Source: Streptomyces chrestomyceticus JCM 4735 (GTDB lineage Bacteria > Actinomycetota > Actinomycetes > Streptomycetales > Streptomycetaceae). Taken from it: DNA of 64,000 bases. The translations under genes were made by a program, and so were the position numbers. Numbering within the stretch: position 1 is the stretch's first letter; every line of letters begins with the position of its first letter. The notes beneath the pieces were generated by a model. The model saw only the letters and a program-made list of their open reading frames with translations, was not told where the DNA came from and did not search any database. The stretch spans positions 4,464,001 through 4,528,000 of the forward strand of contig NZ_BHZC01000001.1 in NCBI RefSeq assembly GCF_003865135.1. The letters are read 5' to 3'. Below, in pieces: positions 30,312 to 46,547 of this stretch.

Positions 30312-30776
30312 TGCCTGCTCCTGTCGCGTCCTCGTAGGAATGCGAACCGGCGATCAACTGATCGGCGGCTAGGGCAGTTTGTGCCCGGACCTCCGGGACT
30401 AGCAAGGGCGTTCGACAACGTTGGCCAGATGTGGGGAGTGCCCGCCGGACCCGGGGCCGCTGGCCGGAATGGAGGGTTGACCGGACGGCGGGGCGGGCGT
30501 AGCCGGGGGCGGCGACGGGGAGCGCGACGGGTGCATGATTCTTTTTTCGGGAGGGTTGACAGTCTCCTGCCACCTCACAAATCTAGGACTCAGCCTTTCC
30601 GGCGGCCCCGGTACGTCGACGCATGAGGAATTCGCGATCCGGGCCTCGCGATCATCAACTCTCCGGTGACACGGCGCACTCCGCCGCTCCGGAGCGGGCC
30701 TCTGCGTCGAACGCCGACGACCTTTTCGCGCCGCGCTCGTCGCAACCCTTCCCGGGCACGAGGCCGATGACAGCCT
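30312..30776. other. Divergent regulatory gap before the biosynthetic cluster
   Basis: 465 bases with no convincing gene. A plus-strand TTGACA at 30556-30561 followed 17-18 bases later by AAATCT/AATCTA is a candidate promoter about 200 bases upstream of the Eis-like gene. A run of T at 30541-30547 precedes it. Confidence 0.45.
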
Positions 30777-30788
30777 TTGGAGAGGAAA

Positions 30789-32111
30789 GTGGAGAACGTG
30801 GCGGACGTGGGAGCGCCGAAGGACGTGCGGCCGGGGACCGGAACGGCCGCGCGGACCGGTGCGGGCGGCGGCCGGGCCACCGCGGGTTACACCTTCCGGG
30901 CCGCCGCGGAATGGGCGGAATTCGGGGCGGTGCTCGACCTCGCGTACGGCGGCCATCCGCACTCGCCGGCCCACAGCGCCGTGGTCGGGGCCCTCTTCGA
31001 ACCGAAGCGTTCCCTGGTCGCGTGCTACGGCGGGCGCCCGTGTGCCACCCTCGCCGGGTACGCGCTGGAGATGACGCTGCCGGGCGGCCCGGCCCCGGTG
31101 GCCGGCATCGGGTACGTGGCGGTCGCGCCGCCGCACCGGCGCCGCGGGCTGATGCGGGAGCTGCTGCGCAAGGCGCTCACCGCGCTGCACGAGGAGCGGA
31201 CCGAGCCGGTCGCGGTCCTGCACTCGACCGAACCGGGGATCTACGGGCGGTTCGGGTTCGGGCTCGCCTCCCAGGCCGTCGAGGTGTCCGTGCCGCCCGA
31301 GGCGCGGGCGTTCGCGGGGGAGGTGGCCGCCTCGGGGCTGACGCTGGACGTCGTCTCACCCGATGAGGCGCACGCTGCCGTCGCGGACGTCTACCGCGCC
31401 TGCCTGTCCCAGCGGCCCGGTCTGCTGCGCAGGGACGCCGCCTGGCAGCGCCGCGCCGTCGAGGACGAGCCGGCCGGCCGGAACGGCGCGGGACGGCTGC
31501 TGTGCATGGTCGTCTCGGGGCCCGGCGGTGACGCGCGCGCGTACGCGCTGTACCGGCTGCGGCCCGCCTGGGAGCGGTCCCGGCCGCGCTATGCCCTCTC
31601 CGTCCGGGAGGTGTTCGCGTGCGACCCCGCCGCGTACGCCTTCGTGTGGCGGTCACTGCTCGACACCGACCTGGCAGGGGCCGTCACCGCGGCATGCTGC
31701 CCGGTCGACGACCCGCTGCTGGCGCTGCTCGACGACCCGCGCAGCGCCGCACCGACCGTACGTGATCAGTTGTACGCCCGTGCCGTGGACCTGGACCGCG
31801 CCCTCACCGCGCGTACCTACAGTGCGCCGGTGGATGTGGTGCTTGAGGTGCGGGACGTGATGTGCCCCTGGAACGAAGGTCGTTGGCGGTTGTGTGCGGA
31901 GCCCGGGGGCGGTGCCGTCTGTGTGCGGACGGGAGCCGCCGCCGATCTCGCGCTGGGCGCCCGTGACGTCGGCGCGGTGCTGCTCGGCGGCGGTTCGTTG
32001 GCCCAGCTCGCGCTCGCGGGCCGGGTCGCGGAGCTGCGGCCGGGCGCGCTGCGCGCCGCCTCCGCCGCCTTCCGCCACGATCCGGCGCCGTACTGTCCGA
32101 CGGCTTTCTGA
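30789..32111 (+). CDS. Eis-type GNAT N-acetyltransferase
   Basis: 440 residues, the length of Eis proteins, with two GNAT-like halves and a sterol-carrier-like C-terminus. The N-terminal GNAT shows AGIGYVAVAPPHRRRGLMRELL (acetyl-CoA loop) and LHSTEPGIYGRFGFGLAS, both diagnostic. The C-terminus ends in a short DPAPYCPTAF, like the Eis C-terminal carboxylate motif. Eis enzymes acetylate amines, including aminoglycosides, at several positions. GTG at 30789 follows GGAGAGG; GTG 30798 is an alternative. It lies just upstream of and co-directional with a set of amino-sugar type genes, so self-protection of a producer is plausible. Confidence 0.87.
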   Translation: MENVADVGAPKDVRPGTGTAARTGAGGGRATAGYTFRAAAEWAEFGAVLDLAYGGHPHSPAHSAVVGALFEPKRSLVACYGGRPCATLAGYALEMTLPGGPAPVAGIGYVAVAPPHRRRGLMRELLRKALTALHEERTEPVAVLHSTEPGIYGRFGFGLASQAVEVSVPPEARAFAGEVAASGLTLDVVSPDEAHAAVADVYRACLSQRPGLLRRDAAWQRRAVEDEPAGRNGAGRLLCMVVSGPGGDARAYALYRLRPAWERSRPRYALSVREVFACDPAAYAFVWRSLLDTDLAGAVTAACCPVDDPLLALLDDPRSAAPTVRDQLYARAVDLDRALTARTYSAPVDVVLEVRDVMCPWNEGRWRLCAEPGGGAVCVRTGAAADLALGARDVGAVLLGGGSLAQLALAGRVAELRPGALRAASAAFRHDPAPYCPTAF

Positions 32112-32232
32112 GGCCGGTGCCCGGCGGTCCCCCGACCGCTGCCCGGCCGGCGGAAGCCGCGCGGTTCCGGCCCCGTGACCATGAGGACGGCTGCCGGTGG
32201 CCGCGTCGTCCATCTTTCTGCGAGGAGTCCCC

Positions 32233-33468
32233 ATGCCCGGACCCGGTTATGCCTTCTTCGGCGACGAGGAGCGCGACAACGTGCAGCAGGTGCTGGACGC
32301 TTGGGCGCGCACGACCGCCGCGCACTCCTACCCGCTCGGTGACCTGACCCAGACCCGCCTGTTCGAGCAGGCCGCGGCGCACCGGCTGGGCAGCCCGTAC
32401 TGCCTGTCCGTCAACAGCGGCACGTCCGCGCTGCAGGCGGGCCTCGCGGCGCTCGGCATCGGGCCCGGTGACGAGATCATCGTGCCCGGGTACATGTACG
32501 GCGCGTGCCTCGCCGCCGTGGCGTACAGCGGGGCGACGCCGGTGCTGGCCGAGGTGGACGCCTCGCTCACCCTCGATCCCGCCGACGTACGGCAGCGGAT
32601 CACGCCGCGCACGAAGGCGCTGATGCCGGTGCACATGCTCGGCGCGGCCTGTGACATGACGGCGCTGCGGCGGACCGCGGACGAGCACGGGCTGCTGGTG
32701 CTGGAGGACGCCGCGCAGGCGTGCGGCGGTACGTACCGGGGCCAGGCGCTGGGCACCTTCGGGCACGCGGGGGCCTTCTCCCTCAACATGTTCAAGGTGA
32801 TCACGGGCGGGGACGGCGGTTTCCTGCTCACCGCCGACGAGCGGATCTTCCAGCGGGCGTACGGCTTCCACGACCACGGCTGGTTCCCGTACCGCCGCGA
32901 GGACGGCCCCGGCGACCGGCTGTGGGGCCTCAACCTGCGGATGACGGAGCTGACGGCGGCCGTGGCGCGCGCCCAGCTCGGCCGGCTGGACGCCGTGCTG
33001 GCCCGTACCCGGGAGCTGCGGGACGACCTGCTGGCGCAGATCCCCGTACGGGACGGGCTGGTCCGCCGCCCCCTGCACGACGCGGCGGGCGACTGCGCGA
33101 CCCTCCTGGTGCACGTCTTCGACGAGCGGGCGGACGCCGAGGCCGTCGCGAAGCGCCTCGGCACCAAGACGCTGCTGCACTCGCCCAAGCACTACTACGG
33201 CGGGATCCCCGAACTGGCCGCGCTGGCCGCCCCGGACGGCTCCTCCTGCCCGTTCCGCCCGGCCGTGGAGTCCTGGCGGCGGGACGGCTGGCGGGCGGGC
33301 GCGCTGCCGCGCACCGACGACGTGCTGAGCCGGTCGCTGGCCATGACCGTCGGCACCACCGACACCTACCTGGGCGCCGACTTCGGGGTCACCGTCTTCA
33401 GCGGTACGGACGAGGTCGCCGAGGTCGCCGAACGGTTCCGCGAGACGGTCGCGGAAGTGCTCGGCTGA
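32233..33468 (+). CDS. DegT/DnrJ/EryC1/StrS family aminotransferase
   Basis: 411 residues. PLP-dependent sugar or cyclitol aminotransferase. Visible: SVNSGTSALQAGLAALGIGPGDEI, VLEDAAQACGGTYRG (PLP Asp), and the lysine in SLNMFKVITGGDGGF (family pattern FKxxxxGEGG, here GDGG). ATG at 32233 with CGAGGAG upstream is preferred over an upstream in-frame GTG at 32197. Relatives transaminate keto-sugars or scyllo-inosose. First gene of the core cluster; the glycosyltransferase follows 52 bases later. Confidence 0.92.
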   Translation: MPGPGYAFFGDEERDNVQQVLDAWARTTAAHSYPLGDLTQTRLFEQAAAHRLGSPYCLSVNSGTSALQAGLAALGIGPGDEIIVPGYMYGACLAAVAYSGATPVLAEVDASLTLDPADVRQRITPRTKALMPVHMLGAACDMTALRRTADEHGLLVLEDAAQACGGTYRGQALGTFGHAGAFSLNMFKVITGGDGGFLLTADERIFQRAYGFHDHGWFPYRREDGPGDRLWGLNLRMTELTAAVARAQLGRLDAVLARTRELRDDLLAQIPVRDGLVRRPLHDAAGDCATLLVHVFDERADAEAVAKRLGTKTLLHSPKHYYGGIPELAALAAPDGSSCPFRPAVESWRRDGWRAGALPRTDDVLSRSLAMTVGTTDTYLGADFGVTVFSGTDEVAEVAERFRETVAEVLG

Positions 33469-33520
33469 CCCCCGGCCCATGCTCCCCCTGCCCTGACCAC
33501 CCACCGACCTAAGGACCGTC

Positions 33521-34531
33521 ATGCCCGCGACCCGAACGCCCGCGCAGCTCACCGCCGTGGCCGCCAGGCCCCTGGTCAGCGTCGTGGTGCCGTGCTTCGA
33601 CGAGGCCGCCGTCATCGGGGAGACGCACCGCCGGCTCCGCGCCGTACTGCGCGGCCTGCCGGAGTGCGAGTACGAGGTCGTGTACGTGGACGACGGCAGC
33701 CGGGACGGGACCTGGGACCGGCTCACGGCGCTCGCCGCCGCCGACGCGCGGGTCCGGCTGGTCCGGCTGACCCGCAACTTCGGGCACCAGCCGGCCGTCC
33801 TCGCGGGCCTGCGCGAGGCGGCCGGGGACGCCGTGGTGACCATCGACGCGGACCTCCAGGACCCGCCCGGCCTCATCGCCGACATGGTCGAACGCTGGCG
33901 CGCGGGCTGGCCCGTGGTCTCCGCGCGGCGCACCGGCCGGGAGGGCGAGAGCCGCTTCAAGACCGGCACCGCGCACGTCTTCTACCGGCTGCTGGCGGCG
34001 GTCGCCGACCACCCCGTGAAGCTCGACACCGGCGACTTCCGGCTGCTGGACCGCGAGGTCGTCCGCACCCTCACGCTGCTCCCGGAGAGCGAGCTGTATC
34101 TGCGCGGCTCGGTGTGCTGGGCGGGCTTCCCCGAGACGAGCCTGGAGTACGGGCGGGGACCGCGGCTCGCCGGGCGGACGAAGTACACGCTGCGCAAGAT
34201 GGCGGGCCTGTCCCGGCGCGGCCTGCTCGCCTGCTCCTCGGCCCCGGCCCGGGTGCCCGCCGCCGTCGGCCTGGCCTGGCTCGGCGGTACGGCCGTCACC
34301 TCGGCCGTGCGGCGCCGCCCGCTGCCGCTCGCCGCGTGGACCTTCGGCTGCGAGGCGGTGCTGCTCGGGGTGCTGGGCGAGTACCTGCTGCTGGTCCACC
34401 GCGAGGTGCGCGGCAGGCCGCCGTACGTGGTCCGCCAGCGGTGGGCGGCCGGCGTCCCGGCACCGGCGGAGCTGACGGCCGCCGGCATGGCCGGGCCCCG
34501 GGAGGCGTGGACCGCCGGGAGCCCTCGGTGA
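33521..34531 (+). CDS. Family 2 glycosyltransferase, ArnC/DPM-like, membrane anchored
   Basis: 336 residues. GT2 fold: VVPCFDEAAVIGETHRRL, YVDDGSRDGTWDRL, LTRNFGHQPAVLAGL, and a DAD metal motif in VTIDADLQDPPGL. Two hydrophobic segments at the C-terminal side (about 240-300) suggest a membrane anchor, as in dolichyl/undecaprenyl-phosphate glycosyltransferases. The R-rich ending (REVRGRPPYVVRQRW) is typical. It overlaps the next gene as GTGA at 34528, so translation is coupled. Donor and acceptor are unknown. Confidence 0.9.
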   Translation: MPATRTPAQLTAVAARPLVSVVVPCFDEAAVIGETHRRLRAVLRGLPECEYEVVYVDDGSRDGTWDRLTALAAADARVRLVRLTRNFGHQPAVLAGLREAAGDAVVTIDADLQDPPGLIADMVERWRAGWPVVSARRTGREGESRFKTGTAHVFYRLLAAVADHPVKLDTGDFRLLDREVVRTLTLLPESELYLRGSVCWAGFPETSLEYGRGPRLAGRTKYTLRKMAGLSRRGLLACSSAPARVPAAVGLAWLGGTAVTSAVRRRPLPLAAWTFGCEAVLLGVLGEYLLLVHREVRGRPPYVVRQRWAAGVPAPAELTAAGMAGPREAWTAGSPR

Positions 34532-35967
34532 CGGCCGTGAACGGCGACCGGGAGGTACGGGACGCACACCCCGGCGACGCGGACTGGGACGTCATCGTCG
34601 TCGGGGCCGGATTCACGGGCCTGGCCGCCGCCCACGAACTCGGCCGGGCCGGGCTGCGCTGCCTCGTCCTGGAGGCCGACGCCCAGGTGGGCGGCCTCGC
34701 GGGCACGTTCACCGTCGGCGGCCGGCAGTTGGAGCGCTTCTACCACCACTGGTTCGCCTCCGACACGGGCATCTTCCGGCTCTGCGCCGACCTCGGCCGC
34801 GCCGACCTCGTCCAGCGCCACCACGGCCGCACCGGCTTCTACTACGCGGGCGGCATCCACCGCCTCTCCACCCCGCTCGACGTGCTGCGCTTCGCGCCGC
34901 TGCCACCCGTCGACCGGCTGCGCCTGGGCCGCTCGGTGCTGCGCGCGGGCCGGGTCCGGCACTGGCGCGAGCTGGAGGCGCTGACCGCCGAGGAGTGGCT
35001 GGTCGGGCTGGGCGGGCGGCGGGTCTACGACCGGGTGTGGCGGCCGCTGCTGGAGGGCAAGTTCGGCCCGTACGCGCCCGAGGTCGGCGCCACCTGGATG
35101 TGGACCAAGCTGCACCTGCGGGGCGGCAGCCGCAGCCGGTCGGGCCGCGAGGTCCTGCACTACCTGCGCGGGGGCTGCGGCGCCCTGCTGGACGCCTGGC
35201 TGCCCCGGCTGGCCGGGCTGGGCGTACGGATACGGACCGGCAGCCCGGTGACGGAGGTGCTGACCGGGCCGGAGGGCGTACGCGGCGTGCGCTGCGGTGG
35301 TGAGGTGACGCGCGCCCCGCGCGTGCTGGTGACCTGCGCCCCCGGGCCCGCCGCCGCAATGCTCGACCGGTCCGCGCACCCCGCCGCCCCGGCCCTGCGC
35401 CGCCGCCTCACGGCGATCCCGTACCTGGCCAACCTCTGCCTGGTGCTGGAGAACGACCGGCCTCTGTCCGACACGTACTGGCTCAACGTCACCGACCCGC
35501 ACTTCCCGTACGTCGGCGTCATCGAGCACACCAACCTCGACGCCCCGGAGCACTACGGCGGGCGGCACCTCGTCTACCTGTCCACGTACCTGCCGGCGGA
35601 CGCCCCGCTCTACCGGATGAGCGACCCGGAGGTCTACCGGTACAGCCTTCCCCACCTGCGGCGGATGTTCCCGGCGTTCCGCACGGAGTGGGTGCGCGCC
35701 CACCACGTCTGGCGCGCCCGGTACGCGCAGCCGGTCATCACCCGGCACTACTCGCGGACCGTGCCCGGCGTCGAGAACGGCGTACCCGGGCTCTACCTCG
35801 CCGGAATGGCCCAGGTCTTCCCCGAGGACCGGGGCACCAACTACGCGCTGCGGGGCGGGCAGCGCGCCGGCCGGCTGATCGCCGACCGCATCCGTACGGC
35901 GGAGCGCCGCACCGCCGGCGCCACCCCCGCCCACCCCATCCACCGGACCGGAGAGGACCATGACTGA
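34528..35967 (+). CDS. FAD-dependent oxidoreductase (amine oxidase / UDP-galactopyranose mutase-like)
   Basis: 479 residues. N-terminal dinucleotide-binding motif VIVVGAGFTGLAAAHELG (about 16-33) with LVLEADAQVGGLAGTF, typical of protoporphyrinogen oxidase/UGM-like enzymes. The C-terminal FAD motif is VPGLYLAGMAQVFPEDRGTNYAL. ERFYHHWFASD and YDRVWRPLLEGKFG recur in homologues that pair with ArnC-like GT2 genes. GTG at 34528 overlaps the GT2 stop. The stop overlaps the aminotransferase ATG (35960) by eight bases. Role likely a redox or mutase step on a sugar; exact reaction unknown. Confidence 0.87.
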   Translation: MTAVNGDREVRDAHPGDADWDVIVVGAGFTGLAAAHELGRAGLRCLVLEADAQVGGLAGTFTVGGRQLERFYHHWFASDTGIFRLCADLGRADLVQRHHGRTGFYYAGGIHRLSTPLDVLRFAPLPPVDRLRLGRSVLRAGRVRHWRELEALTAEEWLVGLGGRRVYDRVWRPLLEGKFGPYAPEVGATWMWTKLHLRGGSRSRSGREVLHYLRGGCGALLDAWLPRLAGLGVRIRTGSPVTEVLTGPEGVRGVRCGGEVTRAPRVLVTCAPGPAAAMLDRSAHPAAPALRRRLTAIPYLANLCLVLENDRPLSDTYWLNVTDPHFPYVGVIEHTNLDAPEHYGGRHLVYLSTYLPADAPLYRMSDPEVYRYSLPHLRRMFPAFRTEWVRAHHVWRARYAQPVITRHYSRTVPGVENGVPGLYLAGMAQVFPEDRGTNYALRGGQRAGRLIADRIRTAERRTAGATPAHPIHRTGEDHD

Positions 35968-37480
35968 CCCCCGCGCCCAGCAGGCGCAGCGGACCCGGCA
36001 GCCCCGGAGACCGCGGCAGACCCTGTTCAGCGCCGACGACTGCGAGCGGATGCCCGCCCGCCAGGTGCACGACCTCTACCGGCAGTACGTCAGCCGCGCC
36101 CAGGTCTCGCTGCTCGGCTCCTTCGGCTTCGGCCAGGACCTGGTCGACCACGCCGAAGGATGCTGGATCACCCTGCGCGACGGGCGGCGCATCCTGGACT
36201 TCACCGGCGGGATCGGCGTCCTCAACCACGGCCACAACCACCCCCGGCTGCTCGCCGCGCGCCGCCGCTTCGCCGACCGGCGCGCCATGGAGGTCCACAA
36301 GAACTTCCTGTCCCCGTACGTGGCCGCGCTCAGCCACAATCTGGCCCGGCTGCTCCCCGGCGACCTGAACATCAGCTACTTCCCCAACTCCGGCGCGGAG
36401 GCCGTCGAAGGCGCCGTGAAACTCGCGTACAAGTACCACGGGGGCCACCGCGGCACCGTGCTGCACAGCGACATCTCCTTCCACGGCAAGCTCCTCGGCG
36501 CGGGCAGCCTCACCGCCTCCCCCGAGGTCGACTTCCCGTACCCCGGCCTGCCGGGCACCGACCACTTCGCCTACGACGACCCGGAGTCCTTCGCCCTCGC
36601 CCTGGAACGGCACCGGACCGGGGACGGCGGCAGCGACGTGTACGCGGTGGTGCTGGAGCCGTTCAGCGCGTCGAGCGTGCGCGCATGCTCGGCGGAGTTC
36701 TTGTACGAGGTGCGCCGGCTCTGCACGGAACGGGACATCGTGCTGATCTTCGACGAGGTGTACACCGGCTGGGGACGGACCGGCACGCTCTTCCACTTCA
36801 TGCGCCACCCCGGCCTGCTGCCCGACGTCCTGACCACCTCGAAGTCGTTCGGCGGCGGCAAGGCGTCCATCTCCGGCTACGTCGCGCGCGAACCGGTCTT
36901 CCGCGCCGCGTACGACAACCTCGCCGACGCGACGCTGCACAGCACCACCTACTACGGCTTCGGCGAGGAGACCGCGACCGCGCTGGAAGCCGTCGCCGTC
37001 GCCGTCGAGGACGACTACCCGGCGCGCGCCGTACGGATCGGCGAGCGGCTGGGCGGGGGCCTCACCGCCCTCGCCGCCCGCCACCGCTCCCTGGTGGCCG
37101 GCACCTGCGGCCAGGGCGCACTGCACGGCCTGTTCCTCAACGACGGCAACCCCGCACTGGACCGGCTGCTGCGCCTGGTCCCCTCCTCCTTCGTCCGCGA
37201 CCCGCGGGCCCGCCGCAAGCTCATCACGGCCGCCGTGATCGCCTCTCTCTACCGCGACTTCGGCGTCCTGGCCTACTACGGCTCCAACCACGGCCTGCCA
37301 CTCATCGCCTCGCCGCCGCTGGTCGCCGGGGAGACCGAGGTCGAGCTGTTCCTCCAGGCTCTGGACTCGGTGCTCCAGCAGGGGGCCGGACGGCTGCTGA
37401 CCCGCTTCGCCAAGGACGTACTGGCGCAGCAGGTGCCCGTGCGGGGCAAGGAGGCCAGGGAGCAGGCGGTGGCGCGGTGA
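35960..37480 (+). CDS. Class III aminotransferase (PLP)
   Basis: 506 residues. Class III signature: YFPNSGAEAVEGAVKLAYKY (phosphate-binding), HGKLLGAGSLTAS, IFDEVYTGWGRTG (PLP Asp), and the catalytic Lys in DVLTTSKSFGGGKAS. It resembles putrescine/omega-amino-acid aminotransferases and the 6'-aminotransferases of aminoglycoside clusters. A GMC oxidoreductase pair just downstream would supply the aldehyde, giving a -CH2OH to -CH2NH2 conversion as in neomycin-type biosynthesis (inference). Overlaps neighbours at both ends. Confidence 0.92.
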   Translation: MTDPRAQQAQRTRQPRRPRQTLFSADDCERMPARQVHDLYRQYVSRAQVSLLGSFGFGQDLVDHAEGCWITLRDGRRILDFTGGIGVLNHGHNHPRLLAARRRFADRRAMEVHKNFLSPYVAALSHNLARLLPGDLNISYFPNSGAEAVEGAVKLAYKYHGGHRGTVLHSDISFHGKLLGAGSLTASPEVDFPYPGLPGTDHFAYDDPESFALALERHRTGDGGSDVYAVVLEPFSASSVRACSAEFLYEVRRLCTERDIVLIFDEVYTGWGRTGTLFHFMRHPGLLPDVLTTSKSFGGGKASISGYVAREPVFRAAYDNLADATLHSTTYYGFGEETATALEAVAVAVEDDYPARAVRIGERLGGGLTALAARHRSLVAGTCGQGALHGLFLNDGNPALDRLLRLVPSSFVRDPRARRKLITAAVIASLYRDFGVLAYYGSNHGLPLIASPPLVAGETEVELFLQALDSVLQQGAGRLLTRFAKDVLAQQVPVRGKEAREQAVAR

Positions 37481-37833
37481 GCGGCGCGCACGCGGAGAAG
37501 GGCAGCCGGATGGCGCGGGCACTGCGCGCGAGCGGACTGCCCCGCCGGTGGGCGGCCCGCTACCCGGCCCTCGCCGGGCCGCGCGCGAGCGCGCGCGCTG
37601 CCGCGCATGTCAGCGGGACGCTGGAGCGGCTGCCGAGGTCGTACCGGTTCGGTGCCGAGATCGCGCTGCGGATCGCCGGGCTGGCACTGCGGGGCGCCGG
37701 GCCGGCGCCGGCGGGGAGTTCCGCACCCGCCGGGCACGACCGGCTCGCGCGGATCCCCGGATTCGGCCGCTTCCTCGACCTCGTCGACGCCCTCGCGCTG
37801 TACGGCGCTCTGGACGGTGAGCGGGACACATGA
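37477..37833 (+). CDS. Small protein associated with GMC oxidoreductases
   Basis: 118 residues from GTG 37477 (GTGA overlap with the aminotransferase) to a stop overlapping the GMC ATG at 37830. Arg/Ala-rich N-terminus (ARALRASGLPRRWAARYPAL), then RIPGFGRFLDLVDALALYGALDGE. No catalytic motif. Its position directly before a GMC gene suggests a helper or small subunit, like the extra subunits of gluconate dehydrogenases; this is inference. ATG at 37510 is an alternative start. Confidence 0.65.
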   Translation: MSGAHAEKGSRMARALRASGLPRRWAARYPALAGPRASARAAAHVSGTLERLPRSYRFGAEIALRIAGLALRGAGPAPAGSSAPAGHDRLARIPGFGRFLDLVDALALYGALDGERDT

Positions 37834-39377
37834 CCCGACGCCGCCCCCCGCCCCGCACCGTCCCCTGTGACGCCCTGGTCATCGGCTCCGGCGCCGGTGG
37901 CGCGGTCGCCGCGCTGGAACTGGCGCGGGCCGGCCACCGTACCGTCGTCCTGGAGGAAGGCCCCCGGACCAGCACCGCCGAGATCGCCGCGGCGGCACCC
38001 GCCGAGAACCTGCGCCGCCTCTACCGCGACGCCGGGCTCACCCCGGTCTTCGGCAGCCCGGTCATCCCGTACGGCGAGGGCCGCTGCGTGGGCGGCAGCA
38101 CGGTCGTCAACGGCGGGGTCCTGTGGGCGCCGCCGGACGTGCTGCTGGAGAGCTGGGCGCAGGAGATGGGCACCACCGACTACCGCGCCGGCCGGCTGGC
38201 GGAGCACGTCCGTACGGTGTCCGAGCGCCTCGGCGTCGGCGAGCAGCCGCACGGCGACGGCAACGCGGACTCCCGGCTGCTGGCGGGCGCGGCCGACACC
38301 CTGGGCTGGCGCTGGGCCGCCGCCCGGCGGGCCGCCCCCGGCTGCCGGCACCGCAACCGCTGCCCGACCGGCTGCCCGAGCGGCGCCAAGCGCAGCATGC
38401 TCGTCAGCTACCTCCCGGAGGCCGAGCGGTACGGCGCCCGGATCGTATCCGGGACGCGGGCCGTGCTGCTGCGGCACGACGGCCGGACCGTGTACGGGGT
38501 GACGGCCATCGGCGGGTCAGAAGGGGTGGGTGGGACGGACGGACCGGACGCCCGCACCCGTATCGACTACCGCCCGCGCACGGTCTTCCTCGCCGCCGGA
38601 GCCGTCGGCAGCGCCCTCCTCCTCCAGCGCAGCGGCATCCACCGCCGCCGGGCCGGGCGCGCCATGGGCTTCCACGTCAACTTCCGCCTGGTGGCCTGCT
38701 TCCCGGACCCGGTGCACGCCACACGCGGCACCATCTTCACCGCGCAACTACGGGAATTCGACGGGCTGGGCATCCACCTGATGCCCGCCAACCTCACCGC
38801 CGGATCACTGGCGGCGGCCCTCACCGGACACGGCCCCGCGGTGCTGGACACACTGCTGGCCGACCTGGGCAGAGTCGCCGTGTACACGGTGCAGGTACGG
38901 ATGGCCGGACGCGTAGCCGTACGCCAACTGCGCGGCGGCACCCGGCTTCTGCGGCACCACCTCACCCCGCACGACCACGCCCTGCTGCGCTTCGCGCTCG
39001 GCCGGGCGGCGCGGCTGCTCTTCCGGGCGGGCGCCGTGGAGCTCTACCCGCCGTGCCCGGGTGTGCTGCGCTCGGACCGTACGGCGCAGGAGTTCGCCGC
39101 CCGGTCGGACCCGCGCGGCTGGAACCTGGTCTCCGTCCACGCCATGGCGTCCTGCCCGATGGGGCGGCCCGCACGCGGCGGGGTGTGCGACCAGGACGGC
39201 CGACCGTACGGTTTCACCAACCTCCGGCTGTGCGACGCGTCGGTGCTGCCGGGTCCGGCCGGCATCAGCCCCCAGGGCACGGTCATGGCCTTCGCGCACG
39301 AGATCGTCGCCCGCCACCTCTCCTCCGCACCACAGGTCCCCACGAGGAGGCACTGTGACAGCGACACCACCCCCTGA
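37830..39377 (+). CDS. GMC-family FAD oxidoreductase 1
   Basis: 515 residues. FAD-binding GSGAGGAVAALELARAGH with VVLEEGP, the GGSTVVNGGVLW loop, a Cys-rich segment CRHRNRCPTGCPSGAKRSM, and the catalytic-site SVHAMASCPMG with the late C-terminal DASVLPGPAGISPQGTVMAFA. These are features of GMC alcohol dehydrogenases of the gluconate/cholesterol-oxidase-like branch. It should oxidise a primary or secondary alcohol. It overlaps its neighbours: ATGA at 37830, and its last 23 bases run past the next start at 39355. One of two non-identical GMC genes in tandem. Confidence 0.9.
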   Translation: MTRRRPPPRTVPCDALVIGSGAGGAVAALELARAGHRTVVLEEGPRTSTAEIAAAAPAENLRRLYRDAGLTPVFGSPVIPYGEGRCVGGSTVVNGGVLWAPPDVLLESWAQEMGTTDYRAGRLAEHVRTVSERLGVGEQPHGDGNADSRLLAGAADTLGWRWAAARRAAPGCRHRNRCPTGCPSGAKRSMLVSYLPEAERYGARIVSGTRAVLLRHDGRTVYGVTAIGGSEGVGGTDGPDARTRIDYRPRTVFLAAGAVGSALLLQRSGIHRRRAGRAMGFHVNFRLVACFPDPVHATRGTIFTAQLREFDGLGIHLMPANLTAGSLAAALTGHGPAVLDTLLADLGRVAVYTVQVRMAGRVAVRQLRGGTRLLRHHLTPHDHALLRFALGRAARLLFRAGAVELYPPCPGVLRSDRTAQEFAARSDPRGWNLVSVHAMASCPMGRPARGGVCDQDGRPYGFTNLRLCDASVLPGPAGISPQGTVMAFAHEIVARHLSSAPQVPTRRHCDSDTTP

Positions 39378-41049
39378 CGCCACGGGGCGCCCGCGCGGCC
39401 TGCTGCGCCCCGCCGGGCCCGTCGTCGACTGCGACATCGCCGTGCTCGGCTCGGGCATGGGCGGCGCGACCCTGGCGTACGCCCTGTGCGGCACCGGCGC
39501 GCGGGTCCTGGTCGTGGAGCGCGGCGACTTCCTGCCGAGGGAATGGCAGAACTGGTCGGCGCCCGACGTCTTCACCGCCGCGCGCTACCGCAACGCCGAA
39601 CCCTGGTACGACGCCGCGTCCGGCCGGTTCTTCTCCCCGGGCGTGCACTACTACGTCGGCGGCAACACCAAGGTCTTCGGCGCCACCCTGCCACGCTTCC
39701 GCGAGGCCGACTTCGGGCCGCTGGAGCACGCCGAGGGCGTCTCGCCCGGCTGGCCGTTCCCGTACGGCGTGCTCGAACCGCACTACGCGCGCGCCGAACG
39801 CCTCTACCGGGTGCACGGCGCCCGCGCCGCCGACCCGACCGACCCGTGGCGCTCCGGCGACTACCCCTGGCCGGCCGTACCGCACGAACCCGCCGTCGCC
39901 ACGCTCGCCGCGTCGCTGCGCGACCAGGGCCTGACCCCGTTCGCCCTGCCCACCGGCGTGGACCTCCGGGAAGACGGCGGGTGCCTGCGCTGCGGCACCT
40001 GCGACGGCTTCCCCTGCCTGGTCGAGGCCAAGAGCGACGCCGACGTGTGCGCGCTGCGGCCCGCGCTGGCCTCCGGCAACGTCTCGCTGCTCACCCGGGC
40101 CACGGTCACCCGGCTCGTCACCGGCGCGTCCGGGCGGCGGGTCACCGAGGCGCTGGCCCAGTACGAGGGCCGTGAGCTGCGCATTCGCGCGGACCGCTTC
40201 GTCCTGGCCTGCGGCGCGGTCAACACGGCGGCGCTGCTGCTGCGTTCGGAGCCCGGCTCCCTGCGTACGGGGCCGGTGCGGACCACGGGCCTGGCGAACG
40301 GGTCCGGGCAGGCCGGGCGCAACTACATGGTGCACAACAGCACCTTCCTCATGGCCGTCGCCCCGCGCCACGCCAACGACGTGGTGTTCCAGAAGACGCT
40401 GGGCGTCAACGACTGGTACCTGGGCAACGGCTCGCGCGGGCCCCTCGGCAACATCCAGGCCCTGGGCAAGCTGCGTCCCCCGTCGGCGGGCGGACTGTGG
40501 CCCCGGACACCGCGCCCGCTGCTCGCCGCCGCCACCCGGCGCAGCTTCGACCTGTACCTCACCAGCGAGGACCTGCCGGTGCCGGGGAACCGGGTGGCCG
40601 TCGGCCCCGGGGACCGGATCGAGGTGCACTGGCGGCCGGTGAACCTGCCGCCGCACCGCGAACTGGCGCGCCGCGCCGTACAGATGATGCGCCGCGCGGG
40701 CTTCCCCCTGATCCGCACCCGGCGGATGGGCATCGCGGTCAACTCGCACCAGTGCGGCACGGCGGTGGCCGGGGACGACCCGGCGGCCAGCGTCGTCGAC
40801 CCGGGGTGCAAGGCCCACGAGCTGGACAACCTCTGGGTCGCGGACAGCTCCTGGTTCCCGTCGTCGGCGGCGGTCAACCCGGCGCTGACGATCGCCGCCA
40901 ACGCGCTGCGCATCGCGCCGGGCGTGGCGGGGGTGCCGGAGGAGACGTACGGCATCCACGCGGCCGGTACGCCCCGCGAGGCCGGTGCGGCCCGCGCCGC
41001 CGACACGGCGCGCGGCGGCTCCGGGGACGGAGGGACCGCGGGCCCATGA
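39355..41049 (+). CDS. GMC-family FAD oxidoreductase 2 (BtrQ/NeoQ-like)
   Basis: 564 residues. GSGMGGATLAYALCG (FAD), YYVGGNTKVFGATLPRFREADF, Cys-rich LRCGTCDGFPCLVEAKSDAD, and C-terminal NSHQCGTAVAGDDPAASVVD with SSWFPSSAAVNPALTIAANALR. The QCGT and SSAAVNPALTI pattern recalls the 6'-dehydrogenases of aminoglycoside pathways. GTG at 39355 follows CGAGGAGG. Stop overlaps the next ATG (41046). The last 40 residues are Ala/Gly-rich. Likely partner of the class III aminotransferase. Confidence 0.9.
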   Translation: MTATPPPDATGRPRGLLRPAGPVVDCDIAVLGSGMGGATLAYALCGTGARVLVVERGDFLPREWQNWSAPDVFTAARYRNAEPWYDAASGRFFSPGVHYYVGGNTKVFGATLPRFREADFGPLEHAEGVSPGWPFPYGVLEPHYARAERLYRVHGARAADPTDPWRSGDYPWPAVPHEPAVATLAASLRDQGLTPFALPTGVDLREDGGCLRCGTCDGFPCLVEAKSDADVCALRPALASGNVSLLTRATVTRLVTGASGRRVTEALAQYEGRELRIRADRFVLACGAVNTAALLLRSEPGSLRTGPVRTTGLANGSGQAGRNYMVHNSTFLMAVAPRHANDVVFQKTLGVNDWYLGNGSRGPLGNIQALGKLRPPSAGGLWPRTPRPLLAAATRRSFDLYLTSEDLPVPGNRVAVGPGDRIEVHWRPVNLPPHRELARRAVQMMRRAGFPLIRTRRMGIAVNSHQCGTAVAGDDPAASVVDPGCKAHELDNLWVADSSWFPSSAAVNPALTIAANALRIAPGVAGVPEETYGIHAAGTPREAGAARAADTARGGSGDGGTAGP

Positions 41050-42047
41050 TCGTCGACCACGCCTACGAACTGATCACCGACGACGTCTTCCTGCGCCTGC
41101 ACGGGCTGCTGCCGCACGCCGAACTCTTCCTCAAGCTGGAAGGGCTCAACCCGGCCGGATCGGTCAAGCTCAAGACCGCCACCGGCCTGGTCGAGGACGC
41201 CGAACGCCGCGGCCTGCTGCACCCCGGCGGCTCGCTGATCGAGTCCTCCTCCGGCAACCTGGGCATCGCCCTGAGCGCCGTCTGCGCGGCCAAGGGCTAC
41301 ACCTTCACCTGCGTCACCGACCCGCACGTACCGCGGCAGAGCGTCGCGCTGATGCGCGCGTTCGGCGCCCATGTGTGCGTCGCGGACACCCCGGACGGCA
41401 ACGGCGGCTACCTCGGCAGCCGGATCGCCCTGATCCGCAGCGCCCTGGACCTCGACCCGTCCCTGACCTGGCTCAACCAGTACGCCAACGCCGCCAACCC
41501 GGCCGTGCACGCGGCGCGCACCGCCGCCGCCGTGCTGCGCGAGATCCGCACCGTGGACTACCTCTTCGTCGGCGCCGGCACCACCGGCACCGTCATGGGC
41601 TGCGCCGCGCACTTCCGCCGCCGCTCGCCCCGGACCACCGTGGTCGCCGTGGACGCCGCGGGCTCGGTGACCTTCGGCGGCCCGCCCGGCGCCCGCCGCA
41701 TCCCGGGCCTGGGCACCAGCCGGGTGCCGGAGCTCTGCCGCCCGCGCGCCGTGCACCGGGTGGTCGCCGTACCCGAGCGGGACGCCGTACGGATGTGCCG
41801 CCGCCTCGCCCGCTCCCACGGCCTGGCCGTCGGCGGCTCCACCGGCTCCGTGCTCTGCGCCGTCCTGCGGCTGCGGTCCGGCATCCCGCCGGGCGCCCGG
41901 GTGGTGGCGCTCTCCGCCGACCTCGGGGACCGCTACCTGGACACCGTGTACGACGACGCCTGGGTCACCGAGCACTTCGGCGCCGCGGCGGCCGGCCGCC
42001 CCCGGACGCCCGGCACCGCGCAGTCCGCCCCAGAGGAGGTGCGTTGA
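41046..42047 (+). CDS. SbnA-like PLP synthase (diaminopropionate-type, cysteine synthase fold)
   Basis: 333 residues, fold type II PLP enzyme. Strings match SbnA more than CysK: NPAGSVKLKTA (catalytic Lys), IESSSGNLGIAL, VTDPHVPRQSVALMRAFGAH, NGGYLGSRIALI, LNQYANAANPAVHAARTA, GTTGTVMGC, VDAAGSVTFGGPPGARRIPGLG, and VGGSTGSVL. SbnA joins O-phosphoserine and glutamate to make N-(2-amino-2-carboxyethyl)-glutamate, the precursor of L-2,3-diaminopropionate. Its usual dehydrogenase partner SbnB is not in this cluster; the next gene is an iron oxygenase-like enzyme. Ends TGA directly before the following ATG. Confidence 0.85.
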   Translation: MIVDHAYELITDDVFLRLHGLLPHAELFLKLEGLNPAGSVKLKTATGLVEDAERRGLLHPGGSLIESSSGNLGIALSAVCAAKGYTFTCVTDPHVPRQSVALMRAFGAHVCVADTPDGNGGYLGSRIALIRSALDLDPSLTWLNQYANAANPAVHAARTAAAVLREIRTVDYLFVGAGTTGTVMGCAAHFRRRSPRTTVVAVDAAGSVTFGGPPGARRIPGLGTSRVPELCRPRAVHRVVAVPERDAVRMCRRLARSHGLAVGGSTGSVLCAVLRLRSGIPPGARVVALSADLGDRYLDTVYDDAWVTEHFGAAAAGRPRTPGTAQSAPEEVR

Positions 42048-43169
42048 ATGAACCCGCCCACCGCGAACGCCGCCCTGCCCCCCACCGCGAACGCCGCCCC
42101 GGCTCCCACCGCCCCGGACCGTGACGACGGCCTCCAGGATCTGTACTGGCCCCCCGTCCACCCCTTCCGCTCCCTCGACCCCGCGCTCGTCCGCTTCCTG
42201 GCCGCTCCCCCGCCCGCCCAGGCCGCCCACCTCGCCCGCCTGCGCGCCGACCCCGAGGCCCACGGCCGCTTCCTCCACGACCACCTGGCCACCCTCTACG
42301 CCCAGTCCTTCGGCTACCGCGACGGACCGGCCGCCCACGCCCCCGACGACGACCTGGAGATCGCCCTGTACGCGGCGCGCACCCGGCTGGAACACGAGTT
42401 CCTGACGTACGGCTGCACCCCCGCGCCCGTACCGGCCCTGCGGAACCAGGAAGCGGCCGCCGACCACCTGGAAGCGCTGGCCGCCCGCAACCCCGGCGCC
42501 TCCCACCCCCTCTTCCGCTTCCTCGCCACCGACGCCTCCCGCGAGCAGATCGAGTACTTCCTGCGCTGCGAACTGATCCGCAACGAAATCGTGGACGACG
42601 AGGTCGCCCTCCTCGTCGTCGGCCTCCAGGGACAGCAGAAGGCCGTCGCGGCGGCCAACCTGTGGGACGAGTGCGGGCGCGGACGGCTGGAGAACTTCCA
42701 CACGTACTGGCTGCGCCGCCAGCTCGGCTCCCCCGCCGGGTGGGAAGCGCTGGCCCGCTACCGCGGCGCCCACCCGTGGTTCGCCAAGCCGACATCGAAC
42801 CTCTTCGCCGCGCTGCTGCTGCGCCCGGCGCGCGTACAGGCCGCGTACGGCTGCTTCCTCGTCTTCGAAAGCTGGGTCGAACCGCACTTCACCCTCCTGC
42901 TGGAGGGAATGACGCGGGTGGGCATCCACGACGACGACATGCGCGTGTACTACACCGCCCACACCCGTATCGACCCCCGCCACAGCCGGGAACTGTGCGA
43001 CGGCCTGCGCGCCCAGCGCCCCCGCCTCACACCCCCGGAGGTACGGGCTGCCCTGTACGGCGCGCACCTCGCGGTCGACACGGGCGTGCGGCAGTACGAC
43101 CGCATCCTGCGTCACTTGGAGACCATGGGCCCGCGGAGCGCGCACGCACCGCGGCCCCAGGACCACTGA
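42048..43169 (+). CDS. Heme-oxygenase-like iron-containing redox enzyme (HDO type)
   Basis: 373 residues. N-terminal ~70 are Pro/Ala-rich; the all-helical core (about 140-360) has spaced acids and histidines typical of heme-oxygenase-like diiron enzymes: FLRCELIRNEIVDDEVALL, LWDECGRGRLENFHTYWL, FESWVEPHFTLLLEG, and YYTAHTRIDPRHSRELCDG. The family includes oxidases making N-O, N-N or decarboxylated products, so it may act on the product of the SbnA-like enzyme. Starts immediately after the preceding stop, so co-translated. Substrate unknown. Confidence 0.83.
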   Translation: MNPPTANAALPPTANAAPAPTAPDRDDGLQDLYWPPVHPFRSLDPALVRFLAAPPPAQAAHLARLRADPEAHGRFLHDHLATLYAQSFGYRDGPAAHAPDDDLEIALYAARTRLEHEFLTYGCTPAPVPALRNQEAAADHLEALAARNPGASHPLFRFLATDASREQIEYFLRCELIRNEIVDDEVALLVVGLQGQQKAVAAANLWDECGRGRLENFHTYWLRRQLGSPAGWEALARYRGAHPWFAKPTSNLFAALLLRPARVQAAYGCFLVFESWVEPHFTLLLEGMTRVGIHDDDMRVYYTAHTRIDPRHSRELCDGLRAQRPRLTPPEVRAALYGAHLAVDTGVRQYDRILRHLETMGPRSAHAPRPQDH

Positions 43170-43192
43170 GGCCGGCTGCGATCGGAGGACAC

Positions 43193-44254
43193 ATGACGGA
43201 CCCGGACCGGAGCGCCCACCAGCAGGCGGGGGCGGCCGACGCGGTACTGACCCTGCCCGGCACGATCCTCACCACGCCCGGACCCGGCCGGGCGAACGGC
43301 GGTCCCGGCGGCCCCGGCGGCTGCACCCTCGGCCTCGACATCGGCGGCACCTTCGTCAAGTCCGCGCTGGTCGCCGCCGACGGCACGGTCCGGCACGAGA
43401 GCCGCTGCCCGACCCGCAGCGCGGACGGCCCCGACGCCGTCCTGCGCGCCGTCCTCGACCACGCCGCCGAGACCCTGGCCGTGGCCCGCGACGCGGGCGA
43501 GGACGTCCGCGCGGTGGGTATCGCCTCCTGCGGGCTGGTGGACGAGGACGCGGGCACCGTCGTGTTCTCCGCCTCCATCCAGTGGCGCGACCTGCCGCTG
43601 CGGCGGCTGGCGGCCGAGCGCCTCGGACTGCCGGTCGCCCTCGGGCACGACGTACGGTCCGGCGGCCTGGCCGAAGCGCGGCTGGGCGCCGGGCGCGGCC
43701 ACCGGGTCGTCCTGTTCGTGCCCGTCGGTACGGGGGTGGGCGGCGCGCTGCTGCTGGACGGGAAGCCGTTCCCGGGCAGCCACTGGCGCTCGGCGGAGGT
43801 CGGGCACGTCGTCACCCGGCCGGACGGCGACGCGTGCCCGTGCGGCCAGCGCGGCTGCCTGGACACCATCGCGGGCGGCGTCGCCGTGGCCCGCCGCTAC
43901 AACCAGCGGTGCGGCGCGCTGCCCCCGGTCTCCGGCGCCGAGGAGGTGGCGCGGCGCGCGGCGGCCGGCGACCCGGCGGCCGTGCAGGTGTGGGAGGAGG
44001 CGGCCGACGCGATGGCCCAGACGCTGCTGACGGCGGTCACCCTCTTCGACCCGGCCGTCCTGGTGCTGGGCGGCGGGCTCAGCCAGGCGGGCGAGCAGTT
44101 GCGCGCGCCGCTGCGGCGCGGCCTCGAACAGCGGGCCGCCTTCCAGGCGCTGCCCGAGATCGTCTTCGCCCGGCTGGGTGAACGGGCGGGCCGGACCGGC
44201 GCCGGACTGCTGGCCTGGGACCTCCTCCACGCCCACGAAGGCGTACGGACATGA
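43193..44254 (+). CDS. ROK-family sugar kinase
   Basis: 353 residues. After a ~45-residue Gly-rich N-terminus comes the ATP-binding LGLDIGGTFVKSALV, then GVGGALLLDGKPFPGSHWRSAEVGH, and the ROK zinc motif: GH followed by CPCGQRGCLDTIAGG. C-terminal VLVLGGGLSQAGEQL is the second ATP site. ROK enzymes phosphorylate glucose, mannose or N-acyl-hexosamines; a cluster role in activating an amino sugar is plausible. ATG 43193 follows GGAGG. Last gene of the tightly spaced run. Confidence 0.9.
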   Translation: MTDPDRSAHQQAGAADAVLTLPGTILTTPGPGRANGGPGGPGGCTLGLDIGGTFVKSALVAADGTVRHESRCPTRSADGPDAVLRAVLDHAAETLAVARDAGEDVRAVGIASCGLVDEDAGTVVFSASIQWRDLPLRRLAAERLGLPVALGHDVRSGGLAEARLGAGRGHRVVLFVPVGTGVGGALLLDGKPFPGSHWRSAEVGHVVTRPDGDACPCGQRGCLDTIAGGVAVARRYNQRCGALPPVSGAEEVARRAAAGDPAAVQVWEEAADAMAQTLLTAVTLFDPAVLVLGGGLSQAGEQLRAPLRRGLEQRAAFQALPEIVFARLGERAGRTGAGLLAWDLLHAHEGVRT

Positions 44255-44491
44255 GCGGCCACGGCCGGGCACAAGCGGTCGCGCCCGTGCCCGTACGCGG
44301 GCACAGCCCGCCCCAGCCGCACACCCGCGTCGGCTGCCGACCCGGCCCTGACCGGCCGCGCGGCCCCCGCTGACCAGGTCTGCCCGCGGCGCGGCGGAGG
44401 TGGGGGAAACGGGCATGTACACCGCAGTGGGCGCGGCGGACCACCCCCGGAGGCCGTCCATCGGGTTCGCTCTTCCCAGCCGGGTTCTCCT

Positions 44492-44504
44492 CCCCTGAAA
44501 GGGG
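44492..44504 (+). promoter_or_regulatory. Ribosome site held in a short hairpin before the permease
   Basis: CCCCTGAAAGGGG can fold so that AGGGG, the likely Shine-Dalgarno for ATG 44512, pairs with CCCCT. It may tune translation. Confidence 0.35.
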
Positions 44505-44511
44505 CCCGACC

Positions 44512-46014
44512 ATGAAGCACCCCGCCCCCGGAGCCGGTCCCGCCGGCTCCGGAGCCCCCCACCCCGCCGCCACCGCCGGAACCGGCCCCCACGCCGGGTC
44601 CGGCGGCCCGGCCCACCACCTCGTCGAGGGCCGCACCATCGACGCCGTACCGGAGACCGAACGGCACGGCCGCCCCCGTGACCTGTTCGCCGTCTGGTTC
44701 GCCGCCAACATCAGCCCGCTGACCATCGTCTCCGGCACCATCGCCCCGCTCGTCTTCGGCCTCGGCCTGTGGCCCGCCGTCGCCGCCGTGACCCTCGGCA
44801 ACCTGCTCGGCGGCTTCCTGATGGCCCTGCACGCGGCGCAGGGCCCGCGGCTCGGCGTCCCCCAGATGATCCAGAGCCGCGGCCAGTTCGGCAGTCACGG
44901 CTCGCTGCTCGTCACGCTCGTCGTCGTCTTCATGTACGCGGGCTGGTTCGCGTCCAACCTGGTCATCGCCGGGCAGGCGCTGAACCGGTCGGTGCCCGCC
45001 GTGGACACCTCCGGCTGGCTGGTGCTGTGCGCGCTGGCCGGGCTGGTCGTCGCGGTCGTCGGCTACCGCCTGATCCACCGCGTCGGCCGCTGGGCCACCG
45101 TCGTCACCCTCGCCCTGCTCGCCCTGTGCGCCGTACGGGTGTTCCTGACCCCCGGCGTCCTCGAACGCGCCACGAACGCCACCGGCTTCACCCTCGCCGG
45201 CTTCGTCGGCATGACCGCGATCGGCATCCTGCTCCAGATCACCTACGCCCCGTACGTCTCGGACTACACCCGCTACATGCCCGCGCACGCCGCGTCCCGC
45301 CGCTCCACCCTGTGGTTCACCTACTGGGGCAGCGTCCTGGGCAGCGTGCTGCCGATGTTCCTCGGCATCGTCATGGGCATCGCGGTCGCGGACGACGCGA
45401 TCGCCGGACTGGACACCGTGCTCGGCGGCACCCTCTCCGCCGTCGTGCTGTGCTCCTTCGCCGTCATCGTCGTCCACGTCAACTCCATGAACCTGTACGG
45501 CACTTCCCTGTGCCTGGTGACCGCCGCCCAGACGTTCCGGCACACCTGGCTGCCGGGCCGCCTGACCCGTACGGCGCTGATCGCGGGCCCGCTCGCCCTC
45601 GGCCTCACCCTCGCCCTGGCCTTCCAGGACACCTTCCTCGCCTCGTACACCGACTTCCTGGCGATCCTCCAGTACGTCCTGATCCCGTGGACCGCCATCA
45701 ACCTCGTCGACTACTACCTGATCCGGCGCGGGAACTACCACGTACCGTCCTTCTTCGCCCCCGGCGGCGGCGTGTACGGACGCATCAACGGCCCCGCCGT
45801 CCTGGTCTACGCCGTCAGCTTCGCGCTGGAGATCCCCTTCATGCACACCTCGGCCTACACCGGGCCGGTCGCCTCGGCCCTCGACGGGATAGACCTCTCC
45901 TGGGCCGTGGGCCTGGCGGTCCCCACCGTCGCGTACTGGTTCATCGCCCGCCGCCGCACCGCACCCGACCTGCTCCCCACCACGGCCCCCGCCCTCCCCC
46001 AGGAAGGCTCCTGA
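44512..46014 (+). CDS. NCS1-family nucleobase/cytosine permease
   Basis: 500 residues with about 12 hydrophobic segments after a ~60-residue Pro/Gly-rich N-terminus. NCS1 features: FAVWFAANISPLTIVSGTIAP, LGVPQMIQSRGQFG (signature), YAPYVSDYTRYMP, and LIPWTAINLVDYYLIRRGNY. Substrates in the family are cytosine, purines, allantoin, hydantoins or thiamine-precursor pyrimidines. It follows the cluster after 257 bases and is in an operon with the PNPOx-like gene (2-base gap). Whether it belongs to the cluster is unclear. Confidence 0.92.
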   Translation: MKHPAPGAGPAGSGAPHPAATAGTGPHAGSGGPAHHLVEGRTIDAVPETERHGRPRDLFAVWFAANISPLTIVSGTIAPLVFGLGLWPAVAAVTLGNLLGGFLMALHAAQGPRLGVPQMIQSRGQFGSHGSLLVTLVVVFMYAGWFASNLVIAGQALNRSVPAVDTSGWLVLCALAGLVVAVVGYRLIHRVGRWATVVTLALLALCAVRVFLTPGVLERATNATGFTLAGFVGMTAIGILLQITYAPYVSDYTRYMPAHAASRRSTLWFTYWGSVLGSVLPMFLGIVMGIAVADDAIAGLDTVLGGTLSAVVLCSFAVIVVHVNSMNLYGTSLCLVTAAQTFRHTWLPGRLTRTALIAGPLALGLTLALAFQDTFLASYTDFLAILQYVLIPWTAINLVDYYLIRRGNYHVPSFFAPGGGVYGRINGPAVLVYAVSFALEIPFMHTSAYTGPVASALDGIDLSWAVGLAVPTVAYWFIARRRTAPDLLPTTAPALPQEGS

Positions 46015-46016
46015 CC

Positions 46017-46547
46017 ATGTCCACCATCCCCGACTTACGCGCCGAGGCGGCCCGCCTCCTGCACACCAACCGCTATCTCACCCTCGGGACCGCCGGACCC
46101 GACGGCACCCCCTGGGCCGTCCCCGTCACCTACGCCTGGGACGACGCGGACCACTTCTACTGGTGGTCCGCGTCGGACGCGGTGCACTCCCGCAACATCG
46201 CCGCCAATCCCGCCGTCTCGCTCCTGGTCTTCGACTCCCAGGTGGCCGACTCCGAGGCACAGGCCCTCTACGGGGAAGGCACCGCGCACGCCCTCGCCCC
46301 GGCCGACCTGCCGTCGGCCCTCGCGGTCTTCTACGCCCGCCGCTACCCCGACCCCGCCGTCCGCGCCCGCCGGGCCCGCGAACCCGCCGAGTTCCAGGAC
46401 GGCTCCCCCAAACGCTTCTACTGCGCCACCGTCCACGCCTACTCGGCCCTGACCCCCGACCCCCACCCGGTCCACGGCAACACGGTGCCCCACCGGGTCA
46501 CCTTTCCGTTCACCACGGCGTGGGCGAAGGCGTACGAGCCGGGGTGA
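46017..46547 (+). CDS. Pyridoxamine 5'-phosphate oxidase-family flavoprotein
   Basis: 176 residues, split beta-barrel FMN/F420-binding fold: NRYLTLGTAGPDGTPWAVPVTYAW, HSRNIAANPAVSLLVFDS, then GEGTAHAL. It is not the full PdxH enzyme, so a general flavin or F420 oxidoreductase. Codon 7 is TTA (46035-46037), so expression is probably bldA-dependent, unusual for housekeeping genes and in keeping with secondary metabolism. ATG 46017 lies two bases after the permease stop. Confidence 0.87.
   Translation: MSTIPDLRAEAARLLHTNRYLTLGTAGPDGTPWAVPVTYAWDDADHFYWWSASDAVHSRNIAANPAVSLLVFDSQVADSEAQALYGEGTAHALAPADLPSALAVFYARRYPDPAVRARRAREPAEFQDGSPKRFYCATVHAYSALTPDPHPVHGNTVPHRVTFPFTTAWAKAYEPG

Follow-up and report, generated by a model that had tools for sequence, protein, structure and literature searches.

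In the KdnA/KdnB pathway to 8-amino-Kdo a primary alcohol is oxidised and then aminated, KdnA being the transaminase that aminates the terminal aldehyde, and the SbnA/SbnB pair makes 2,3-diaminopropionate (Dap) for staphyloferrin B synthesis and for other uses too. ArnC and GtrB are polyprenyl-phosphate glycosyltransferases. Among the haem-oxygenase-like diiron oxygenases (HDOs), HrmI and BelK are N-oxygenases that turn the lysine side chain into a nitro group, according to PMC13108848. Here we analyse a window of 64,000 nucleotides (4.464-4.528 Mb) from the 9.38 Mb, one-contig genome of Streptomyces chrestomyceticus JCM 4735, where a cluster of 13 plus-strand genes, g1 to g13, all with intact frames, fills positions 30789-46547 (Table 1). 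As far as paper searches reach the cluster is undescribed, and the statement of the initial annotation that its gene order could be matched to no described cluster holds, none having been found in these searches.

The comparison with the described systems shows likenesses and differences in each case. The best solved match of g2, a DegT-type aminotransferase carrying the motif FKVITGGDGG, is KdnA over nearly its whole length (5k8b, E 8.2e-59, residues 16-386; sequence similarity only), whereas the candidate oxidiser at this locus is a GMC flavoenzyme and no Kdo genes occur among the 13. The glycosyltransferase g3 aligns with the ArnC/GtrB type across residues 19-309, but the cluster's 13 genes include no GT-C, flippase or Arn-type partner. 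The PLP enzyme g9 scores above the SbnA cut-off, while SbnB lies outside this cluster and only elsewhere in the genome. The oxygenase g10 belongs to the same superfamily as HrmI and BelK, and HrmI is its closest solved sequence (9n1a, E 6.3e-14), but the relationship is distant (55 bits) and the g10 family has Dap-type gene neighbours.

The cluster in related Streptomyces

Three relatives (G036, G361 and G072, the last being S. rimosus NRRL WC-3904) have all 13 genes with the order unchanged and with identities of 61-96%, so the arrangement is not due to chance. S. monomycini carries g2-g13 in order, its stretch beginning inside g2; g4 reaches its highest identity in S. paromomycinus (96%) and S. 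monomycini (95%). In the niger lineage g10 stands directly 3′ of g8: S. niger holds g1-g8 and g10-g12, and S. ochraceiscleroticus holds g1-g8 and g10, with no g11-g13 within 10 kb beyond. The permease gene g12 is thus kept in S. niger as well, and g13 is confined to rimosus-type loci among those compared. The S. violens copy is decayed (L037:6005-7097), the similarity stopping in g1 at about residue 191 and resuming in g4 at about residue 272; owing to this internal deletion S. violens (L037/L046) was excluded from the complete copies. Pairs of loci from the same genome (L035/L043, L036/L044, L037/L046, L045/L101 and L038/L050) were each counted once.

A short stretch at 30000-30330 of the window flanks the cluster in both lineages, being present in S. 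violens and S. niger too, which suggests that the cluster was inherited in place. A close HDO (E≤1e-30) was detected in six of the 392 sampled genomes of the genus, five of them with the cluster or with the S. violens remnant; the sixth, G410, has its HDO at a separate locus with SbnA and without the remaining cluster genes. The cluster is a real, conserved and co-inherited biosynthetic unit.

The five-gene core and its enzymes

A match to the GMC enzyme g7 (GMC1) at E≤1e-60 is present in 17 of the 392 genus genomes, and 15 of these matches reach at least 57% identity. Five of these 15 are cluster bearers; the other ten, together with four loci found by g5, make 14 core loci in other Streptomyces. 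Matches to g5 occur in 35 genomes, and 12 of these, besides the window genome, were read over the wide region. At all 14 core loci g3, g4, g5 and g7 follow each other in the identical order, g6 being detected in 13, and none of g1, g2 and g8-g13 gives a match above 45 bits within the stretches of 12-19.5 kb that were read. Since g3-g7 stand alone at these loci, the cluster extends a cassette that is free-standing elsewhere. A major facilitator superfamily (MFS) gene lies 3′ of GMC1 in L105, with BLAST homologues in four more of the 14. No assigned function for the five-gene cassette was found, and as it recurs across Streptomyces, a single deletion would be informative for many genomes.

For g3, all seven distinct PDB sequences at E≤1e-8 were GtrB sll0501, ArnC or dolichol-phosphate mannose synthase, and the homology to sll0501 is full-length (E 3.3e-54), so that assembly of the sugar may take place on a lipid carrier. 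The model of g4 (pLDDT 83.7) has phytoene desaturase and protoporphyrinogen oxidase as its nearest folds, although a fold neighbour is no proof of substrate. The class III aminotransferase g5 matches 4uox (E 6.9e-51) and reaches 223 bits with the PigE model NF053554, below the cut-off of 850. The small protein g6 is helical and gives a conserved alignment across relatives; it had no Pfam match and its model (pLDDT 80) matched no PDB fold at E≤0.001, so that Pfam and PDB gave no support for a GMC small subunit. In g7 the C-terminal His and SPQxT motifs are kept in relatives, and the second GMC enzyme, g8 (GMC2), is closest to the FAD-dependent glucose and fructose dehydrogenases (6a2u, E 2.2e-28).

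Of 28 distant g5 homologues, six loci in other Streptomyces (L107-L112) were examined, and g3, g4 or g7 occurred at none of them. Pfam annotation, done for L107 and L110, showed surroundings of the lipid-linked-sugar type: a GT2, a UbiA, an LPG_synthase_TM and two Exo_endo_phos genes in L107; a GT4, an epimerase and an LPG_synthase_TM at its cut-off in L110. Some of the L107 families are common to the other loci by BLAST.

The same genome offers a yardstick for aminoglycoside biosynthesis in a 2-deoxystreptamine-type cluster at 522-560 kb (L113-L114), which, as a guess from the species, may be the paromomycin cluster. Like our cluster it holds DegT, GMC and class III aminotransferase genes; unlike it, it also has the 2-deoxy-scyllo-inosose synthase by which it was recognised (about 532.6 kb; 2d2x, E 1.5e-71) and a Zn-type alcohol dehydrogenase, and its class III aminotransferase, which scores best with a glutamate-1-semialdehyde aminomutase model, aligns with g5 over no more than 89 aa. 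The GMC enzymes of the two clusters are related and distant (31% over 530 aa for g8, 27% over 546 columns for g7), and g2 shares 41% over 244 aa with the DegT enzyme; what the flavoenzymes and the DegT enzyme do may be analogous in the two clusters. On sequence comparison, g5 is no close counterpart of the class III aminotransferase there (L114:4540-5790; 29% over 89 aa, E 0.001).

These results bear on the initial annotation, which had proposed a diamino sugar or aminocyclitol pathway with an Eis-like self-protection step. Its view of a unit with two pyridoxal phosphate (PLP) aminotransferases and two GMC flavoenzymes was upheld. The aminocyclitol conjugate was rejected, as domain and family scans of the 13 genes detected no cyclitol synthase. 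The neomycin analogy drawn for the class III aminotransferase is not supported by the g5 alignment given above, and close homology to neomycin-type enzymes was rejected on the g5 and GMC identities. The Eis identity of g1 was also dropped: it scored 191.5 against a cut-off of 576 and 110.6 against 701 bits for two Eis equivalogs, and fell within the unnamed subfamily NF002367 (437.8 bits, cut-off 259). The product class named there is possible and not the one we favour. That annotation did not notice that g9 is of the diaminopropionate-synthase type and is linked to the oxygenase, or that g3 is a glycosyltransferase of the polyprenyl-phosphate type.

The SbnA-type enzyme and the diiron oxygenase

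With the SbnA equivalog TIGR03945, g9 scores 391.3 bits (cut-off 349.95), and it matches SbnA 5d87 at E 4.8e-70. A pair of SbnA and SbnB genes lies elsewhere in all eight cluster-bearing genomes; in the window genome (G000) two SbnB-like places are found, one at about 1007 kb and one, split between two frames, at about 8274 kb. The six candidate metal ligands of g10 (E208, H218, E274, H305, D309 and H312) are the same in all 18 sequences compared and correspond to the 3H/3C diiron ligand set of the HDO superfamily. Compared with the SznF ligands E215/H225/E281/H311/D315/H318, as given in PMC11705231, their spacing is the same except from the second Glu to the second His (31 instead of 30).

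In order to see the HDO family outside the cluster, the neighbours of its relatives were examined at 14 loci (a separate set of 127 relatives is not part of this count). An SbnA-like gene stands near the HDO at 13 of them, with at least 45% identity at 11, two of which are partial or broken (L057, L059); the identity is only 31% in L029 and 28% in L058. An SbnB-like gene is near at 11 of the 14, and the two that were scanned both scored above cut-off. The Kutzneria locus (L054) has neither an SbnA-like nor an SbnB-like gene. In the HDO tree, which is unrooted and without outgroups, the rimosus- and niger-lineage HDOs form one clade (100/98), and the cluster HDOs fall together with Dap-linked HDOs from actinobacteria and one from a gammaproteobacterium (97/95, 14 rows). 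For this family 2,3-diaminopropionate is a concrete and cheap candidate substrate, and any new reaction would widen a superfamily of which about a dozen members are characterised (PMC13108848).

Several of the outside loci show recurrent arrangements of their own. The order SbnA, SbnB, EamA, 2-hydroxyacid dehydrogenase, HDO and DcsG-like ATP-grasp is shared by Kitasatospora, Saccharothrix, Solihabitans and Streptacidiphilus (L048:5836-11901, L051:5977-11904, L052:5992-11940 and L059:5840-11891, the last genus with broken frames). An ATP-grasp homologue stands beside the HDO at five of the 14 loci; the L051 copy, the one scanned, reaches 176 bits with the D-cycloserine synthetase DcsG (cut-off 360). 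The four loci that share the gene order may encode a route from N-oxygenated diaminopropionate to a cycloserine-like antimetabolite. Three of the 14 loci have a gene that distantly resembles lactate permease: Glycomyces and Zooshikella have it after minimal SbnA-SbnB-HDO operons (L055:7926-12437 and L060:7955-12459), and in a Burkholderiales metagenome-assembled genome it follows a partial SbnA with SbnB undetected (L057:6863-10185). A plasmid search with the HDO returned 22 records, one of which, from Sulfuriferula, covers most of the query. On this Sulfuriferula nivalis plasmid (L029:17962-29047) HDO, kinase, cysteine-synthase-family, two ATP-grasp, argininosuccinate lyase, PhzF-like and MFS genes stand in a row.

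Proposed pathway, alternatives and layout

From the gene content, order, conservation, families, candidate metal ligands and co-occurrence described above, we infer the substrates, the order of steps and the product. Our tentative preference, which we hold at somewhat less than an even chance, is that the cluster is an uncharacterised, vertically kept operon of two modules. In the core, g3 would load a sugar on a lipid acceptor, polyprenyl phosphate or one related to it; the flavoenzymes g4 and g7, the latter with the small protein g6 that is linked to it, would oxidise an alcohol, and g5 would convert the carbonyl to an amine. In the add-on, g8 and the KdnA-like g2 would carry out a second oxidation and amination, and g9, together with SbnB from another locus, would supply Dap or a Dap precursor to g10, which would N-oxygenate or rearrange it. 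A sugar intermediate would be phosphorylated by g11, g1 would N-acetylate and g12 would transport. The likely product is an aminated glycoside that carries an N-oxygenated unit derived from diaminopropionate. A bolder version, which we regard as quite improbable, is that a secreted product is built on a polyprenyl-phosphate sugar, oxidised and transaminated while lipid-bound by the five-gene cassette, and that the rimosus/niger clade adds an N-oxygenated 2,3-diaminopropionate unit, its HDO family elsewhere perhaps making cycloserine-like antimetabolites.

Several observations weigh against this two-module operon. For the C-terminal transmembrane helices of GtrB/ArnC-type enzymes, a simple hydropathy scan of g3 gave one hydrophobic stretch (about 267-293), and no peptide ligase, flippase or lipid-phosphate hydrolase is present among the 13 genes. 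An SbnB-type gene is likewise missing from the 13. Of 61 relatives 26 carry SbnB, and within the genus 21 of 37 do, with the cluster bearers counted in; its presence elsewhere in the bearers is therefore only permissive. The gene g9 is missing in place at all three loci of the S. niger clade, its grouping with HDO-linked SbnAs has modest support (84/77), and the counts of 13 and 11 of 14 for SbnA and SbnB stand without a background rate for unrelated HDOs. Finally, g2, g8 and g11 also fit a soluble sugar pathway.

In such a soluble pathway a GMC enzyme and the class III aminotransferase would give a 6-amino sugar, the DegT enzyme a ring amine and the ROK kinase a sugar phosphate, with N-acetyl protection by the Eis-like protein. 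It would explain two aminotransferases, two GMC enzymes, a ROK kinase and a GNAT protein in one operon, and the identities of g8 and g2 to their counterparts in the 2-deoxystreptamine-type cluster are consistent with it; we nevertheless consider it unlikely, because g5 is unrelated to the yardstick aminotransferase beyond the superfamily, the GT2 is of the polyprenyl-phosphate type, no gene forming a nucleoside-diphosphate sugar or a cyclitol is among the 13, g1 misses the Eis cut-offs, and the SbnA and HDO are left unexplained. Rather less probable to us is an amine on a lipid, with g4 and g7 oxidising an isoprenoid or other lipophilic alcohol, g5 making a lipophilic amine and g3 glycosylating it: the GMC, FAD and class III folds are broad, their fold neighbours give no substrates, and the dehydrogenases closest to g8 act on glucose and fructose.

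The add-on could also be read differently. SbnA makes a C-N bond, and g9 might join the serine β-carbon to the g2/g5 amine instead of to glutamate, the HDO then oxidising the N-linked unit. That g9 sits in the cluster without SbnB, though each bearer has another SbnA-SbnB pair, speaks for such coupling, but its score above the SbnA equivalog cut-off and its absence from the loci of the S. niger clade, which do keep g10, make us doubt it strongly. Least credible is a chance adjacency of an aminated-glycoside operon (g1-g8) and an independent HDO/ROK/permease unit. It agrees with the lack of g9-g13 in the stretches read at the 14 core loci and with HDOs that occur elsewhere without the core; it is opposed by the overlap or abutment of g8, g9 and g10, by the position of g10 directly after g8 in the niger lineage, and by the single clade of both lineages' HDOs.

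Re-reading of 30789-46547 bore out the earlier coordinates, strand and domains. The shared direction of the genes stood, and the count rose from twelve to 13, the 118-aa g6 being what may have been overlooked. The spacings confirm the nine-gene chain from the DegT aminotransferase to the iron oxygenase-like enzyme (g2-g10), with the ROK kinase next: successive values are 52, -4, -8, -4, -4, -23, -4 and 0 bp, with overlap or abutment throughout g3-g10. The other gaps are 85 bp (g1-g2), 23 bp (g10-g11), 257 bp (g11-g12) and 2 bp (g12-g13).

Table 1. Genes of the cluster, in positions of the window
Gene	Type	Coordinates	Strand	Family evidence
g1	Eis-like GNAT acetyltransferase, 440 aa, NCBIfam subfamily PRK01346.1-4	30789..32111	+	Pfam Acetyltransf_9 + Acetyltransf_17 + SCP2_2
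g2	DegT/DnrJ/EryC1/StrS aminotransferase	32197..33468	+	PF01041, 241 bits
g3	Glycosyltransferase family 2 (GT2), GtrB/ArnC/dolichol-P-mannose synthase type	33521..34531	+	PF00535
g4	FAD oxidoreductase, PRK07233 family, amine oxidase/phytoene desaturase fold	34528..35967	+	
g5	Class III aminotransferase, putrescine-aminotransferase/PigE-like	35960..37480	+	PF00202, 185 bits
g6	118-aa helical protein of no known family, between g5 and g7	37477..37833	+	
g7	GMC oxidoreductase 1 (GMC1), cholesterol-oxidase/cellobiose-dehydrogenase-like	37830..39377	+	PF00732 + PF05199
g8	GMC oxidoreductase 2 (GMC2), FAD glucose/fructose dehydrogenase-like	39355..41049	+	PF05199 + PF00732
g9	SbnA-type 2,3-diaminopropionate biosynthesis PLP enzyme	41046..42047	+	TIGR03945
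g10	Haem-oxygenase-like diiron oxygenase (HDO)	42048..43169	+	PF14518
g11	ROK-family sugar kinase	43193..44254	+	PF00480, 200 bits; under NCBIfam cut-offs
g12	NCS1-family permease	44512..46014	+	PF02133, 181 bits
g13	PPOX-class (F420-type) flavoprotein, peripheral	46017..46547	+	PF01243

Just upstream of the cluster, the window encodes at 27834-29921 a 695-aa protein whose only Pfam match is an N-terminal TerD domain.

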